Both the position numbers and the translations under genes were made by a program. Of a stretch of 42,755 bases of DNA, positions 4,809 through 8,409 are shown piece by piece. Origin of the DNA: a virus. Under the pieces are notes generated by a model, which searched no databases, was not told where the DNA came from, and saw nothing but the letters and a program-made list of their open reading frames with translations. Positions within the stretch are counted from its first letter, which is position 1. The number at the start of each line of letters is the position of its first letter. The stretch lies in the IMG/VR virus record IMGVR_UViG_3300031576_000120, positions 1-42,755 of that record; one strand, 5' to 3'.

Positions 4809-4884
4809 GCTTTCGAAGTGTATTGGATTGCACACTCGCCTGTCACGCGAGAAGCAGCGGGTTCGATCCCCGTCGATAGCGCCA
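4809..4884 (+). tRNA. tRNA-Asp(GTC)
   Basis: 76 nt with encoded CCA. D-stem GTGT/GCAC, anticodon stem CTCGC/GCGAG, anticodon GTC at 4842-4844, T-loop TTCGATC, discriminator G as usual for Asp. A T4-T69 mismatch interrupts the acceptor stem. Confidence 0.9.
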
Positions 4885-4955
4885 GCGGAGTCCATTGGAT
4901 GGTGGCGAAACTCCAAATCTCGCCTTCGTGGGTTCGATTCCTACACGCCGTGCCA
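4885..4955 (+). tRNA. tRNA-Trp(CCA), shortened D arm
   Basis: 71 nt. Anticodon CCA at 4913-4915 in loop CTCCAAA, T-stem GTGGG/CCTAC and encoded CCA. Only about 14 nt separate the acceptor from the anticodon stem, so the D arm is reduced. One mismatch in each of the acceptor and anticodon stems. Confidence 0.75.
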
Positions 4956-5040
4956 GCAGAATTGGTGGAATTGGCAGACACACTGGTCTTAGAAACCAGC
5001 GCCGCAAGGCATACGGGTTCGACTCCTGTATTCTGTACCA
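4956..5040 (+). tRNA. tRNA-Leu(TAG)
   Basis: 85 nt, class II with a long variable arm. Anticodon stem CTGGT/ACCAG, loop CTTAGAA, acceptor GCAGAAT/ATTCTGT, discriminator A, CCA encoded. It abuts both neighbours. Confidence 0.9.
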
Positions 5041-5115
5041 GCTTCGTTCGTCTAGTGGTTAGGACGCCACCCTCTCAAGGTGGCGACAGCGGTTCAACTC
5101 CGCTACGAAGTACCA
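5041..5115 (+). tRNA. tRNA-Glu(CTC)
   Basis: 75 nt. Anticodon stem CCACC/GGTGG, loop CTCTCAA, acceptor GCTTCGT/ACGAAGT, encoded CCA. A second Glu tRNA (TTC) lies at 5885. Confidence 0.9.
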
Positions 5116-5190
5116 GCTTCTCTAGCTCGAAGGCAGAGCAGTTGCTTTACACGCAATTGGGTGCGGGTTCGATTCCTGCGAGAAGTACCA
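5116..5190 (+). tRNA. tRNA-Val(TAC)
   Basis: 75 nt. D-stem GCTC/GAGC, anticodon stem GTTGC/GCAAT, loop TTTACAC, T-stem GCGGG/CCTGC, acceptor GCTTCTC/GAGAAGT, CCA encoded. Confidence 0.9.
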
Positions 5191-5267
5191 GCACACGTAG
5201 CTCAGATGGTTAGAGCACCGATCTGATACATCGGGGGTCGCACGTTCGAGTCGTGCCGAGTGTACCA
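5191..5267 (+). tRNA. tRNA-Ile(GAT)
   Basis: 77 nt. Anticodon stem CCGAT/ATCGG, loop CTGATAC, T-stem GCACG/CGTGC, CCA encoded. There is an A5-A68 mismatch in the acceptor stem. Confidence 0.9.
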
Positions 5268-5341
5268 CAGAGTGAAGTGTTACGGCAGCACAGGTGGTTT
5301 GGGGCCATCGGGACGGGGTTCAATTCCTCGTACTCTGACCA
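5268..5341 (+). tRNA. tRNA-Pro(TGG)
   Basis: 74 nt. It starts with C1 paired to G72, as expected for bacterial Pro tRNA. Anticodon loop TTTGGGG, T-loop TTCAATT, acceptor CAGAGTG/TACTCTG, CCA encoded. Confidence 0.9.
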
Positions 5342-5415
5342 GCATCGTTGGGCTAGCGGCAGACCGTGACGTTGCCAACGTCGAGGCGCGTGTTCGATTC
5401 ACGCACGATGCACCA
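5342..5415 (+). tRNA. tRNA-Gly(GCC)
   Basis: 74 nt. Acceptor GCATCGT/ACGATGC pairs perfectly. Anticodon stem TGACG/CGTCG, loop TTGCCAA, T-stem GCGTG/CACGC, CCA encoded. Confidence 0.9.
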
Positions 5416-5416
5416 C

Positions 5417-5491
5417 GGGGGATTAGGCTATCAGGGAAACCATCTGCCTTGCAAGCAGAATTGCGGAGTTCGAGTCTCCGATTCTCCACCA
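5417..5491 (+). tRNA. tRNA-Ala(TGC)
   Basis: 75 nt. Acceptor GGGGGAT/ATTCTCC contains the G3-U70 wobble that marks Ala tRNA. Anticodon stem TCTGC/GCAGA, loop CTTGCAA, CCA encoded. Confidence 0.9.
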
Positions 5492-5492
5492 C

Positions 5493-5566
5493 ACTCCATT
5501 CGTTCAATGGTAGGATACGCGGTTGTTACCCGTAGGATCAGGGTTCGAATCCTTGATGGAGTGCCA
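5493..5566 (+). tRNA. tRNA-Asn(GTT)
   Basis: 74 nt. Acceptor ACTCCAT/ATGGAGT, anticodon loop TTGTTAC, T-stem CAGGG/CCTTG, discriminator G as usual for Asn, CCA encoded. Confidence 0.9.
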
Positions 5567-5643
5567 GTTCCTTTAGCGCAGTTGGATAGCGCGCGACCCC
5601 GCGAAGGTCGAGGTCAGTGGTTCGAGTCCACTAAGGAATACCA
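5567..5643 (+). tRNA. tRNA-Arg(GCG), C33 variant
   Basis: 77 nt with a perfect anticodon stem CGACC/GGTCG. The loop reads CCGCGAA, so the nearly universal U33 is C, and the anticodon is GCG instead of the usual bacterial ACG. Acceptor GTTCCTT/AAGGAAT, CCA encoded. Confidence 0.85.
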
Positions 5644-5719
5644 GCTTCGGAAGCTCAATTGGCAGAGCAGGCGGCTCTTACCCGTCCGGTTGCGAGTTCG
5701 ACTCTCGCCCGTAGCACCA
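5644..5719 (+). tRNA. tRNA-Lys(CTT)
   Basis: 76 nt. D-stem GCTC/GAGC, anticodon loop CTCTTAC, T-stem GCGAG/CTCGC, CCA encoded. It has the same T4-T69 mismatch as tRNA-Asp. Confidence 0.9.
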
Positions 5720-5809
5720 GGAAGATTGGCAGAGTGGCCGATCGCAGCAGTTTGCTAAACTGTAGCCCGTGAATTCGGGCCAGGGGTTCGAATCCTCTAT
5801 CTTCCGCCA
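5720..5809 (+). tRNA. tRNA-Ser(GCT)
   Basis: 90 nt, class II with a long variable hairpin (AGCCCGTG...CGGGCC). Anticodon loop TTGCTAA, acceptor GGAAGAT/ATCTTCC, discriminator G, CCA encoded. Confidence 0.9.
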
Positions 5810-5810
5810 C

Positions 5811-5884
5811 TGTTCGTTCGTCTAACGGTAGGACGCGGGCCTCTGAACCCCGAAATCATGGTTCGAATCCATGAGGAACAGCCA
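5811..5884 (+). tRNA. tRNA-Gln(CTG)
   Basis: 74 nt. U1-A72 with discriminator G is typical of Gln. Anticodon loop CTCTGAA, T-stem CATGG/CCATG, CCA encoded. C31-C39 and G6-G67 mismatches. Confidence 0.88.
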
Positions 5885-5958
5885 GGATCATTCGTCTAAC
5901 GGTAGGACGCGGGCCTTTCAAACCCGCAACCGGAGTTCGACTCTCCGATGATCTACCA
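5885..5958 (+). tRNA. tRNA-Glu(TTC)
   Basis: 74 nt. Anticodon loop CTTTCAA, T-stem CGGAG/CTCCG, acceptor GGATCAT/ATGATCT, CCA encoded. The anticodon stem has a C31-A39 mismatch. Its 5' half is closely similar to the adjacent Gln(CTG), suggesting duplication. Confidence 0.88.
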
Positions 5959-6028
5959 GCCTTCGCTCAAGGCGAGCGCCGTCCCTCGTAAAGACGGCTT
6001 GAGAGTTCGATTCTCTCCGATGGCCCCA
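5959..6028 (+). tRNA. tRNA-Thr(CGT), compact D arm
   Basis: 70 nt. Anticodon loop CTCGTAA, T-stem GAGAG/CTCTC, CCA encoded. A 4-bp D hairpin with a 5-nt loop (GCTC/GAGC) begins inside the acceptor linker, so the D arm is shortened. T4-T69 and C31-A39 mismatches. Confidence 0.8.
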
Positions 6029-6029
6029 C

Positions 6030-6092
6030 GGGTCTTTACATGGCTGTCCTTGCTAGCGGGGGCTGGTTCGATTCCAGTAATGAGACTCATCA
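6030..6092 (+). pseudogene. degenerate tRNA
   Basis: A T arm (GCTGG-TTCGATT-CCAGT) and a plausible acceptor (GGGTCTT/GAGACTC) are present. However, three extra bases (6079-6081) split T stem from acceptor, the 3' end reads TCA instead of CCA, and no good anticodon stem can be drawn. It is most likely a decayed tRNA, or a tRNA-like element of unknown use. No anticodon is assigned. Confidence 0.5.
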
Positions 6093-6093
6093 C

Positions 6094-6179
6094 GGAACGT
6101 CTAACATTGGCGTGTGCAACCGTCTTGAAAACGGCAGGGTGTGAAAGCCTTGAGGGTTCGATTCCTTCACGTTCCGCCA
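6094..6179 (+). tRNA. tRNA-Ser(TGA)
   Basis: 86 nt, class II. Anticodon loop CTTGAAA, long variable arm, T-stem GAGGG/CCTTC, acceptor GGAACGT/ACGTTCC, discriminator G, CCA encoded. Confidence 0.9.
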
Positions 6180-6254
6180 GCGAGTTTAGTGTAGCGGCTA
6201 TCACGCCTGCCTTCCAAGCAGGAAACCGGAGTCCGATCCTCCGATCTCGCACCA
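6180..6254 (+). tRNA. tRNA-Gly(TCC)
   Basis: 75 nt. Anticodon stem CCTGC/GCAGG, loop CTTCCAA, CCA encoded. The T loop is TCCGATC, so the usual U55 is C. T6-T67 mismatch in the acceptor. Confidence 0.88.
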
Positions 6255-6255
6255 C

Positions 6256-6329
6256 TGAGGGTTCGTCTAATGGTAGGACGGGAGCCTTTGAAACTCCCTA
6301 CCTGGGTTCGAATCCTAGACCCTCAGCCA
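6256..6329 (+). tRNA. tRNA-Gln(TTG)
   Basis: 74 nt. Acceptor TGAGGGT/ACCCTCA with U1-A72 and discriminator G. Anticodon loop CTTTGAA, C31-A39 mismatch, CCA encoded. Confidence 0.9.
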
Positions 6330-6405
6330 GCCATGCTAGTGACAACGGCTAGCACAGGGACTTGGTAAGTCTCAAGACTGAGTTCGATTCTCAGGCGTGG
6401 CTCCA
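6330..6405 (+). tRNA. tRNA-Thr(GGT)
   Basis: 76 nt. Anticodon stem GGGAC/GTCTC, loop TTGGTAA, T-stem CTGAG/CTCAG, acceptor GCCATGC/GCGTGGC, discriminator T, CCA encoded. The D arm can form GCTA/TAGC shifted toward the acceptor. Confidence 0.87.
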
Positions 6406-6406
6406 C

Positions 6407-6483
6407 GGCAACGTAGCCCAACGGCAGAGGCAACGGCTTCAAAACCCGTACAGGTGCCAGTTCGAATCTGGCGGTTGCTACCA
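6407..6483 (+). tRNA. tRNA-Leu(CAA)-type, short variable loop
   Basis: 77 nt. Spacing from the 5' end places the loop TTCAAAA at 32-38, giving anticodon CAA. Bacterial Leu tRNAs have long variable arms, but this one has only about 6 nt, so charging is uncertain. C31-C39 mismatch. T-stem GCCAG/CTGGC, CCA encoded. Confidence 0.75.
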
Positions 6484-6484
6484 C

Positions 6485-6559
6485 TGCGGAGTGGTGCTCT
6501 GGTGAGCACATCAGATTCATAACCTGACAAGGCGAGTTCGATCCTCGTCTCCGCTACCA
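6485..6559 (+). tRNA. tRNA-Met(CAT)
   Basis: 75 nt. Anticodon loop TTCATAA, D-stem GTGC/GCAC, T-stem GCGAG/CTCGT, CCA encoded. Position 1-72 is a T-T mismatch, reminiscent of initiators, but the three G-C pairs of an initiator anticodon stem are absent. Elongator Met or Ile2 are also possible. Confidence 0.85.
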
Positions 6560-6629
6560 GCCCTCGCGCACGGTGCGTGCAGCCCCTTGTAAGGGCAGCC
6601 ACAGAGTTCGACTCTCTGCGATGGCTCCA
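6560..6629 (+). tRNA. tRNA-Thr(TGT), compact D arm
   Basis: 70 nt, the same compact architecture as Thr(CGT). Anticodon loop CTTGTAA, T-stem CAGAG/CTCTG, discriminator T, CCA encoded. Position 4-69 is again mismatched. Confidence 0.82.
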
Positions 6630-6630
6630 C

Positions 6631-6707
6631 GGTGTTGATAGTGTACTGGTTGTGCATGGTAGGCTGTGAACCTGCTGGTACGAGTTCGATCCTCGTTCAT
6701 CACCCCA
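6631..6707 (+). tRNA. tRNA-His(GTG)
   Basis: 77 nt including an extra 5' G(-1) at 6631 opposite discriminator C73, the hallmark of His tRNA. Anticodon stem GTAGG/CCTGC, loop CTGTGAA, CCA encoded. T4-T69 mismatch. Confidence 0.92.
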
Positions 6708-6784
6708 CTGTCGGTAGAGTTCTGGCGGAACGACGCGGACTGTAAACCCGCTCAAGCGTGGTTCGATCCCACGACGACAGACCA
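6708..6784 (+). tRNA. tRNA-Tyr(GTA), class I type with C1-G72
   Basis: 77 nt. Anticodon loop CTGTAAA is typical of Tyr. It has C1-G72 and a short variable loop, whereas bacterial Tyr tRNAs normally have G1-C72 and a long arm. T-stem CGTGG/CCACG, discriminator A, CCA encoded. Confidence 0.82.
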
Positions 6785-6860
6785 GACGCGATAGCTCAGT
6801 TGGTAGAGCGTTCGGTTGAAACCCGAAAGGTCGGCGGTTCGAGTCCGCCTCAAGTCACCA
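6785..6860 (+). tRNA. tRNA-Phe(GAA)
   Basis: 76 nt. D-stem GCTC/GAGC, anticodon stem TTCGG/CCGAA, loop TTGAAAC, T-stem GGCGG/CCGCC, CCA encoded. Two acceptor mismatches (4-69 and 5-68). Confidence 0.9.
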
Positions 6861-6936
6861 GCATCCTTAGCTCAGTGGATAGAGCGGCGCGCTTCGAACG
6901 CGAAGGTCGGGGGTTCGAATCCTCTAGGGTGTTCCA
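6861..6936 (+). tRNA. tRNA-Arg(TCG)
   Basis: 76 nt. Anticodon loop CTTCGAA in stem GCGCG/CGCGA, T-stem GGGGG/CCTCT, acceptor GCATCCT/AGGGTGT, discriminator T, CCA encoded. Confidence 0.9.
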
Positions 6937-7009
6937 GCATCGTTCGTCTTGGATGGCGTAGCAGTGTTCTAAGCTGCGAGGGTGGGTTCGAATCCTACAC
7001 GGTGTACCA
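6937..7009 (+). tRNA. tRNA-Arg(TCT)
   Basis: 73 nt. Anticodon stem GCAGT/GCTGC, loop GTTCTAA, T-stem GTGGG/CCTAC, acceptor GCATCGT/ACGGTGT, CCA encoded. The D arm is two bases short and G32 is unusual. Confidence 0.85.
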
Positions 7010-7010
7010 C

Positions 7011-7093
7011 GGGGGCAGACGGGTTCGACAGCGACGCAGAACCGCACGTCGGAGTGTTGCTGGACAGGAGTTCGACTCTCCTTGCTTCCACCA
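7011..7093 (+). ncRNA. tmRNA-like tRNA-like domain without message region
   Basis: 83 nt. Acceptor GGGGGCA/TGCTTCC has the G3-U70 pair and A73-CCA needed for alanine charging, and the T arm AGGAG-TTCGACT-CTCCT is normal. The D side reads ACGGGTTCGAC, matching the conserved GG(N)TTCGAC of tmRNA 5' ends. There is no anticodon arm. Instead CAGCGAC and GTTGCTG form a 7-bp helix like tmRNA helix P2, closing a ~20-nt loop. No tag reading frame with a stop is present, so it may be a deletion remnant or a minimal functional form. A very aberrant tRNA is the alternative. Confidence 0.55.
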
Positions 7094-7094
7094 C

Positions 7095-7169
7095 GGCGCT
7101 TTAGCCAAGCGACTAAGGCTCCTGTCTGCAAAACAGGGATCGTGAGTTTGATTCTCACAAGCGCCTCCA
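7095..7169 (+). tRNA. tRNA-Cys(GCA)
   Basis: 75 nt. Acceptor GGCGCTT/AAGCGCC is perfect. Anticodon stem CCTGT/ACAGG, loop CTGCAAA, CCA encoded. The T loop is TTTGATT, with U in place of the invariant C56. Last member of the array. Confidence 0.9.
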
Positions 7170-7438: not shown

Positions 7439-7485
7439 GGAGCCTTGACAAGCGAGGTATAGTCAAGTGAGAGAGGAGAGTGAAC

Positions 7486-8409
7486 GTGGAGTTTCAAGAA
7501 GGTACTCCGCACCTGTTCTCCCTAGCCGAGGTTGCGCGGAAGCACGGGGGCGAACTCGTGCGGCGCGCTCAGAACGTCACTGAGCGATACGGTATCGGCA
7601 CGGGATGGCAGGAGCTAGACAACCTTCTGCGCGGCGGTGGCTTGCTCCCAGGACTGCTCTATGTCGTCGGCGGACGCCCAGGCATGGGCAAAACCACCTT
7701 CATGCAGAACCTTGCTGTCAACATTGCGCGGCAAGGCACACCAGTAGCCGTGTTCTCATTGGAGTTGTCGGCTGCGCGCCTACTGGAACGCCTAGCGTAC
7801 CAAGAGGCGGGCATCGACTACGCCTACCACTACCGCAACCAGATGCCTATGAGTGAGGCTCAGGTGCAGTTGTTCGCGGAGACGTTGCGCGGACTGGCCA
7901 AGCTCCCCATCTACGTGCAGGACACAGCGGGCATGACGCCCAACATGATCGCGCAGACGATGCACAAGCACCGTGACCTACACGGGTTGAAGGTGATGTT
8001 CATCGACTACCTTCACATCATGCGACCGGACGGCAAGATTTGGGGTGGTGGACGTGAGAGGGAGATCGGTACGATGGTCGAGGTCGTGCGAGACACAGCG
8101 AAGATGCTCCACGTAGCGTGTGTACTGGCCAGCCAGTTGAACCGCGCGGGTGAGGAGAAGCCGCCGTTCATTCCCGCACTACAGAACCTCAGAGACAGCG
8201 GCAGCATCGAGCAAGTGGCCTACGCCGTGCTCGCGCTGTACCGTCAGGACTACTACATCCTCAACGGGCAGATGCCTGCGGACGACGACGGCAACTTGCC
8301 ACCGCTGAACGAGAGCATGGACGTTGTGGTGCTCAAGCAACAGGACGGGCCTATGGGTACGGCCCACTTGAAGTTCATCGACGGTACGGGAAAGGTGGGG
8401 AACTGGTGA
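7486..8409 (+). CDS. DnaB-like replicative helicase, RecA domain only
   Basis: About 307 aa. It contains Walker A GRPGMGKTT (near residues 63-71), Walker B VMFIDYLHIM (near 170), ASQLNRAGEE and an arginine-finger-type C-terminus (VLKQQDGPMGTAHLKF). It lacks the N-terminal DnaB domain that binds primase, so it corresponds to the DnaB C-terminal hexamer domain. It unwinds DNA at the fork with the primase and polymerase encoded downstream. GTG 7486 is preferred because AGGAG (7474-7478) then has 7-base spacing; GTG 7480 is the alternative. The stop overlaps the next GTG (GTGA). Confidence 0.85.
   Translation: MEFQEGTPHLFSLAEVARKHGGELVRRAQNVTERYGIGTGWQELDNLLRGGGLLPGLLYVVGGRPGMGKTTFMQNLAVNIARQGTPVAVFSLELSAARLLERLAYQEAGIDYAYHYRNQMPMSEAQVQLFAETLRGLAKLPIYVQDTAGMTPNMIAQTMHKHRDLHGLKVMFIDYLHIMRPDGKIWGGGREREIGTMVEVVRDTAKMLHVACVLASQLNRAGEEKPPFIPALQNLRDSGSIEQVAYAVLALYRQDYYILNGQMPADDDGNLPPLNESMDVVVLKQQDGPMGTAHLKFIDGTGKVGNW

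Follow-up and report, generated by a model that had tools for sequence, protein, structure and literature searches.

The locus described here raises the question of whether a small tmRNA-like RNA with no message, encoded inside a viral tRNA array, is a working gene and, if so, how it may act in the infected host. The window, which is the whole stretch of DNA analyzed in the present study (42,755 bases), is from a virus and encodes a major head protein, a terminase large subunit, a DNA polymerase, and a DnaB-like helicase. Its terminase shows only 24-30% identity to known phages, and a search of viral contigs for relatives of the window through its helicase found none. The tRNA array (Table 1) covers all 20 amino acids, though the record is only 42.8 kb. 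In two of its genes, tRNAs Trp and Thr (4885-4955 and 6560-6629), the anticodon falls at position 29, which would fit a shortened D arm, and the gap at 5959-6093 holds tRNA-like stretches of 70 nt (5959-6028) and 65 nt (6029-6093) without an ARAGORN call, one of them apparently lacking a D arm. The element in question, 7011-7093, is separated by a single base on each side from a weakly scoring tRNA upstream (6937-7009; 25 bits with Rfam at 6937-7006, sub-threshold) and from a tRNA-Cys gene downstream (7095-7169).

Table 1. Positions of the array, the element and its parts, and the adjoining helicase gene in the window.
Feature	Positions	Strand	Support
tRNA array with near-zero spacers; message-less tmRNA penultimate	4809-7169	+	27 ARAGORN tRNAs and an Rfam sub-threshold tRNA at 6937-7006
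Predicted message-less tmRNA (tRNA-like domain and capped P2, encoded CCA)	7011-7093	+	RF00023 57.4 bits; R1 62.5 bits
Acceptor stem 5' strand GGGGGCA, G3 at 7013	7011-7017	+	7/7 pairs with 7083-7089
tmRNA-type D side GACGGGTTCGAC	7018-7029	+	alignment to RF00023 consensus
P2 5' strand AGCGACGC	7030-7037	+	8 pairs with 7054-7061; P2 covaries in 65 representatives
Purine internal loop AGAA/A and apical hairpin CCG-CACGT-CGG, replacing the mRNA-like domain	7038-7053	+	folding, alignment
P2 3' strand GTGTTGCT	7054-7061	+	pairs with AGCGACGC, 8 bp
Connector GGAC, P2 to T arm	7062-7065	+	RF00023 alignment
T arm AGGAG-TTCGACT-CTCCT, 5-bp stem	7066-7082	+	RF00023 alignment, fold
Acceptor 3' strand TGCTTCC (U70 at 7087), discriminator A73, CCA	7083-7093	+	RF00023 alignment, pairing
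DnaB-like replicative helicase, downstream of the array	7480-8409	+	phrog_19, E 6.7e-62

Regarding its identity, the element is 83 nt long (GGGGGCA...TGCTTCC-ACCA), and the limits given in the original prediction, which regarded it as a tmRNA-like RNA without a message, were exact. The proposed check against a tmRNA model bore this out: when the whole window was searched, the Rfam tmRNA model RF00023 matched the element at 57.4 bits (E 4.9e-20; cut-off, 47 bits), and at 48.8 bits when a short stretch was searched. This match spans model positions 1-374, with a few nucleotides in place of 294 of them. The GGGGG start, D side, G3-U70 pair, T arm, and CCA that had been named were all found; the tRNA-like domain consists of a 7-bp acceptor stem, in which G4-U69 lies alongside G3-U70, the D side GGNTTCGAC, GGAC, the T arm, and the CCA end, and the identity marks for alanine are G3-U70 at 7013/7087 and A73 at 7090. 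A P2-like helix was also present as claimed, whereas it is an 8-bp helix of AGCGACGC and GTGTTGCT, relative to which the 7-bp CAGCGAC/GTTGCTG of the original description is displaced by one pair in the outward direction.

The stop triplets TAA, TAG, and TGA do not occur anywhere in 7011-7093, and the element thus cannot encode a tag, in agreement with the claim that its 83 nt contain no tag frame with a stop. Only 32 nt lie between TTCGAC and GGAC, a tag reading frame with a stop codon is absent, and the pseudoknots around the message domain are missing from the RF00023 alignment. A better tRNA fold with a real anticodon arm had been considered as a refutation; the sequence of the element does not allow an anticodon stem of 5 bp with a loop of 7 nt. 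ARAGORN, which had also been proposed as a check, made no call at 7011-7093; this program almost always misses message-less tmRNAs. An ordinary tRNA with an odd arm was rejected because there is no 5-bp anticodon stem and ARAGORN was silent, a permuted tmRNA because RF04321 scored 18.4 bits against a cut-off of 47 and the acceptor strands are in the normal order, and a two-piece tmRNA because of this same order and the hairpin that closes P2. The unconstrained minimum-energy fold of the element is the proposed structure. Since its energy is not below that of shuffled sequences (z -0.27), the support for the structure is the covariance-model score and comparison, not folding energy. Judged from its sequence, 7011-7093 is a message-less tmRNA that has kept all of the sequence features by which the tRNA-like domain of tmRNA is recognized.

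Comparison with related phages, which had been suggested for this element, revealed the same form in at least 117 viral contigs and in isolates. Viral contigs were scanned with a pattern that combined the D-side TTCGAC with GGAC and a portion of the T arm and allowed a gap of 18-48 bases, the acceptor stem not being included, and at least 120 loci matched; among the 120 matches listed, at least 117 were complete message-less tmRNAs by a structural filter, and one beyond these (L024) looks like a copy whose acceptor carries a small deletion. A second pattern, consisting of the top hairpin alone with no part of the tRNA-like domain, matched 44 viral loci, and the complete element was present in 34 of them. 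The same 34 were recovered at 55-89 bits by R1, a covariance model that we built from 65 representatives. In size, the relatives vary: L032 (11908-12002) and L044 (11235-11329) have a P2 that is much extended, to 11-14 pairs when counted by direct pairing, and ARAGORN calls one of these two as tmRNA*, while the smallest forms, L074 (7440-7508) and L115 (1914-1980), have 19 nt from TTCGAC to GGAC and a plain P2 hairpin without an apical stem. The L115 element is called tRNA-Arg by ARAGORN.

In a 65-sequence alignment, two-sided changes over the whole structure amounted to 379 cells; shuffles gave 139.6 +/- 8.8, and sliding the partners gave 78-129. All seven P2 pairs covary, and the first is formed in 65/65 sequences with 37 two-sided changes. 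The MAFFT alignment puts some acceptor strands 1-3 columns out of place, and the figures for helix 1 are lowered as a result; acceptor counts were taken from a direct structural parse, and the parser demanded 6 of the 7 acceptor pairs and a plausible first dinucleotide and left pair 3:70 unconstrained. Among the matches listed, G1-C72, G2-C71, G3-U70, and A73 were present in all 93 distinct sequences parsed, and pairs 4:69, 5:68, and 6:67 each vary among GC, CG, AU, and UA. As an independent test, the complete elements found through the top hairpin had G3-U70 and A73 in 34/34 cases. When the scans were pooled, 113 sequences passed among the matches listed, two of which were ordinary tRNAs by inspection, and the remaining 111 all retained G3-U70 and A73. 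That the alanine identity never varies suggests a role for entry of the charged RNA into the ribosome, beyond the soaking up of SmpB. In the top-hairpin set, the combinations of D side and connector were TCGTC with GCAC, TAGCC with GTAC, and TTCGAC with GGAC; in L215, L225, L226, L229, L236, and L246, the D-side GAC and the connector GGAC change jointly (GTC/GCAC and GCC/GTAC), which suggests a co-varying junction contact in the tRNA-like domain.

These results bear on the alternative, raised in the original prediction, that the element is a deletion relic of a full tmRNA and has no present function. The message domain is indeed absent, and the window element lies within a tRNA array, a setting in which genes are readily gained and lost; nevertheless, the strong covariation, the invariant identity elements, and the recurrence of one cap across many unrelated viruses and in several genomic settings contradict a relic, and we give this reading almost no credence. 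Since more than 100 virus sequences carry the same form under clear selection, the message-less tmRNA is, on this comparative evidence, a conserved viral form under strong selection and a working gene, not debris. The first reading of the window element, as a tmRNA-like RNA without a message, is accordingly confirmed by its Rfam match, the covariation of P2, and the existence of over 100 relatives.

A different function would be that of an instant-stop tmRNA, in which translation would resume on a stop triplet located where P2 meets the loop, and the peptide would be released with one alanine added. Of 69 representatives, 43 have a stop triplet close to the loop where 35.3 +/- 3.3 would be expected, a weak excess that is uncorrected for relatedness. 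However, in 18 of the 69 the stretch bounded by the P2 ends is free of stop triplets, as it is in the element in the window, which makes this mechanism highly improbable.

Regarding genomic context, the location in a tRNA array holds for the window element and does not extend to the form as a whole. Among the matches listed, a tRNA was found within 500 bases at only 25 of 126 loci, and approximately 80% of the elements stand alone outside tRNA arrays. The next genes include those for major head proteins, head maturation proteases, DnaB-like helicases, and replication initiators, and the element therefore occupies different modules in different phages. It may be supposed that the RNA is a tRNA-like processing or stability element that punctuates a transcript of the phage, for instance ahead of the major capsid gene, and has no role on the ribosome. 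The head protein is the next large gene at several viral loci, and in the Pontimonas phage phiPsal1, a lone element lies directly upstream of the major capsid gene. On the other hand, the contexts vary among tRNA arrays, replication genes, and head genes, and such an element would need neither tmRNA-specific D-side features nor an invariant alanine identity pair; we consider this explanation very unlikely.

Besides phiPsal1, BLAST with the consensus element matched the Streptomyces phages pSt2308, LuckySocke, GiJojo, Alone3, and BRock. The full element is present in pSt2308, BRock, LuckySocke, and phiPsal1, and Alone3 and GiJojo are known from the BLAST match alone (79% and 98% of the query, respectively). 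No tmRNA is annotated at the element in these Streptomyces phages or in phiPsal1. The neighborhood common to pSt2308, BRock, and LuckySocke comprises Arg, Arg, and Val tRNA genes, the element, Ser genes, Ile, thioredoxin, His, Tyr, and RNA ligase. Partial BLAST matches in S-RIP1, nepoznato, GodonK, Rb1, and GMA2 were rejected as ordinary tRNAs or full-length tmRNAs, those in GodonK, GMA2, and Rb1 being the 3' ends of longer tmRNAs and not the short form.

In cellular genomes, a near-identical pattern gave 78 matches in 84,980 bacterial and archaeal genomes. Eight were real short forms, on contigs labelled Bacillota, Acidimicrobiales, Prochlorococcus, cyanobacterium, Mycobacterium, and Parafrankia, and most of the 78 were 3' ends of ordinary tmRNAs or chance matches. 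R1 matched strongly in 3 of 297 genomes drawn evenly from the class of the Parafrankia seed genome and in 2 of 194 drawn evenly from the phylum of the Prochlorococcus seed genome, the seed being included each time. These low rates indicate that the short form is mainly viral and rare in cells. One cyanobacterial genome (L213 and L214; near 1501-1579, - strand) has two near-identical short tmRNAs of 48 bits in large tRNA arrays, with GGAT instead of GGAC and with G3-U70 retained.

In 37 of 39 records, the short form was the only RF00023 match above the cut-off; in one record the match was below it, and one record had no match. None of the 39 has a second, full-length tmRNA beside the short form, an absence that is provisional since many records are fragments. 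SmpB was found on none of 49 records, an absence that is provisional for the same reason, and host partners would thus be needed.

The original prediction had raised the possibility of a decoy. The best explanation of the present element, which we regard as probable though by no means certain, is indeed a decoy, charged with alanine, that would rely on the SmpB and EF-Tu of the host and obstruct trans-translation there. The RNA would be transcribed together with the tRNA array, excised by RNase P, and charged with alanine by the host alanyl-tRNA synthetase. Host SmpB and EF-Tu would then bind the charged RNA and deliver it to ribosomes stalled at the ends of broken mRNAs, where it would compete with host tmRNA. 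With no reading frame to resume on, full trans-translation, namely, tagging and release, would fail, and the host rescue-and-tag pathway would be suppressed during infection. It counts against this reading that some phages are known to need tmRNA. The invariant alanine identity elements agree with a decoy, as does the strong inhibition of E. coli tmRNA by an RNA of the type found in mycobacteriophage DS6A, as reported in PMC4131195 and PMC11915505.

The main rival of the charged decoy is rescue without a tag, in which the RNA, charged with alanine, would take over the stalled peptide and remove the truncated mRNA, with no degradation tag added. The peptide would be released by drop-off and peptidyl-tRNA hydrolase or by another release factor, and ribosomes would be freed with the phage's own truncated proteins spared. 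The invariant G3-U70 and A73 imply that charging matters, and the short form alone is present in the 39 records examined for a second tmRNA. Tag-less tmRNAs also exist elsewhere, as outlined in PMC11915505: those of jakobid and oomycete mitochondria have no tag frame and are retained together with SmpB, and two plastid tmRNAs of approximately 65 bp also lack one. However, no known step ends translation after a message-less tmRNA, and the one reported test of a form with the tRNA-like domain only gave inhibition. We therefore consider rescue of this kind to be possible but rather doubtful. The broader proposal, that the widespread viral, alanine-charged RNAs are a distinct selected class that frees stalled host ribosomes untagged and does not only titrate SmpB, is likewise tentative and on the unlikely side.

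For the charged decoy, the most useful point to test is a conflict. An account in PMC4131195 states that inhibition by the RNA with the tRNA-like domain only was independent of its chargeability, which suggests that SmpB titration alone can suffice and is at odds with the invariant G3-U70. One resolution is that charging counts in nature yet not when the RNA is overexpressed; the other is that G3-U70 serves a different purpose. A change in G3-U70 is predicted to abolish the natural function if charging matters and to leave it intact if SmpB titration suffices, and the isolated Streptomyces phages are ready material. Whether phages routinely switch off or replace the host rescue of stalled ribosomes has thereby become a testable question.

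Among known systems, the published precedent is the 'TLD only' tmRNA that phage DS6A encodes (Mao et al. 2009, cited in PMC4131195 and PMC11915505). Like the element in the window, which is an RF00023 match without a message in a virus record, it is phage-encoded, has little beyond the tRNA-like domain, and has no tag frame; the likeness is drawn from the published description. Our literature search, which covered few subscription journals, found no other reports of short or phage message-less tmRNAs. The bacterial one-piece tmRNA (RF00023) shares the acceptor stem with G3-U70 and A73, the D side, the T arm, and the start of P2, whereas the element has no tag reading frame and no pseudoknots and is approximately 80 nt long instead of approximately 350. 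The jakobid and oomycete mitochondrial and Mallomonadaceae plastid tmRNAs also consist of a tRNA-like domain without a message; however, the mitochondrial genes are usually permuted and their SmpB is nucleus-encoded, while the element here is viral, contiguous, and hairpin-capped. Full-length phage tmRNAs (Bxz1, Wildcat, and Gordonia and Stenotrophomonas phages) are similarly phage-borne and often beside tRNA genes, but carry a message, with an annotated tag peptide in Streptomyces phages such as Forrest. DS6A is treated as a single case in the papers, a curiosity, whereas in the present study a single scan contributed at least 117 viral contigs, to which several isolates are added, and the data point to a common viral gene under strong selection. 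The kind is known but almost undescribed, and what is new is its spread and constraint.
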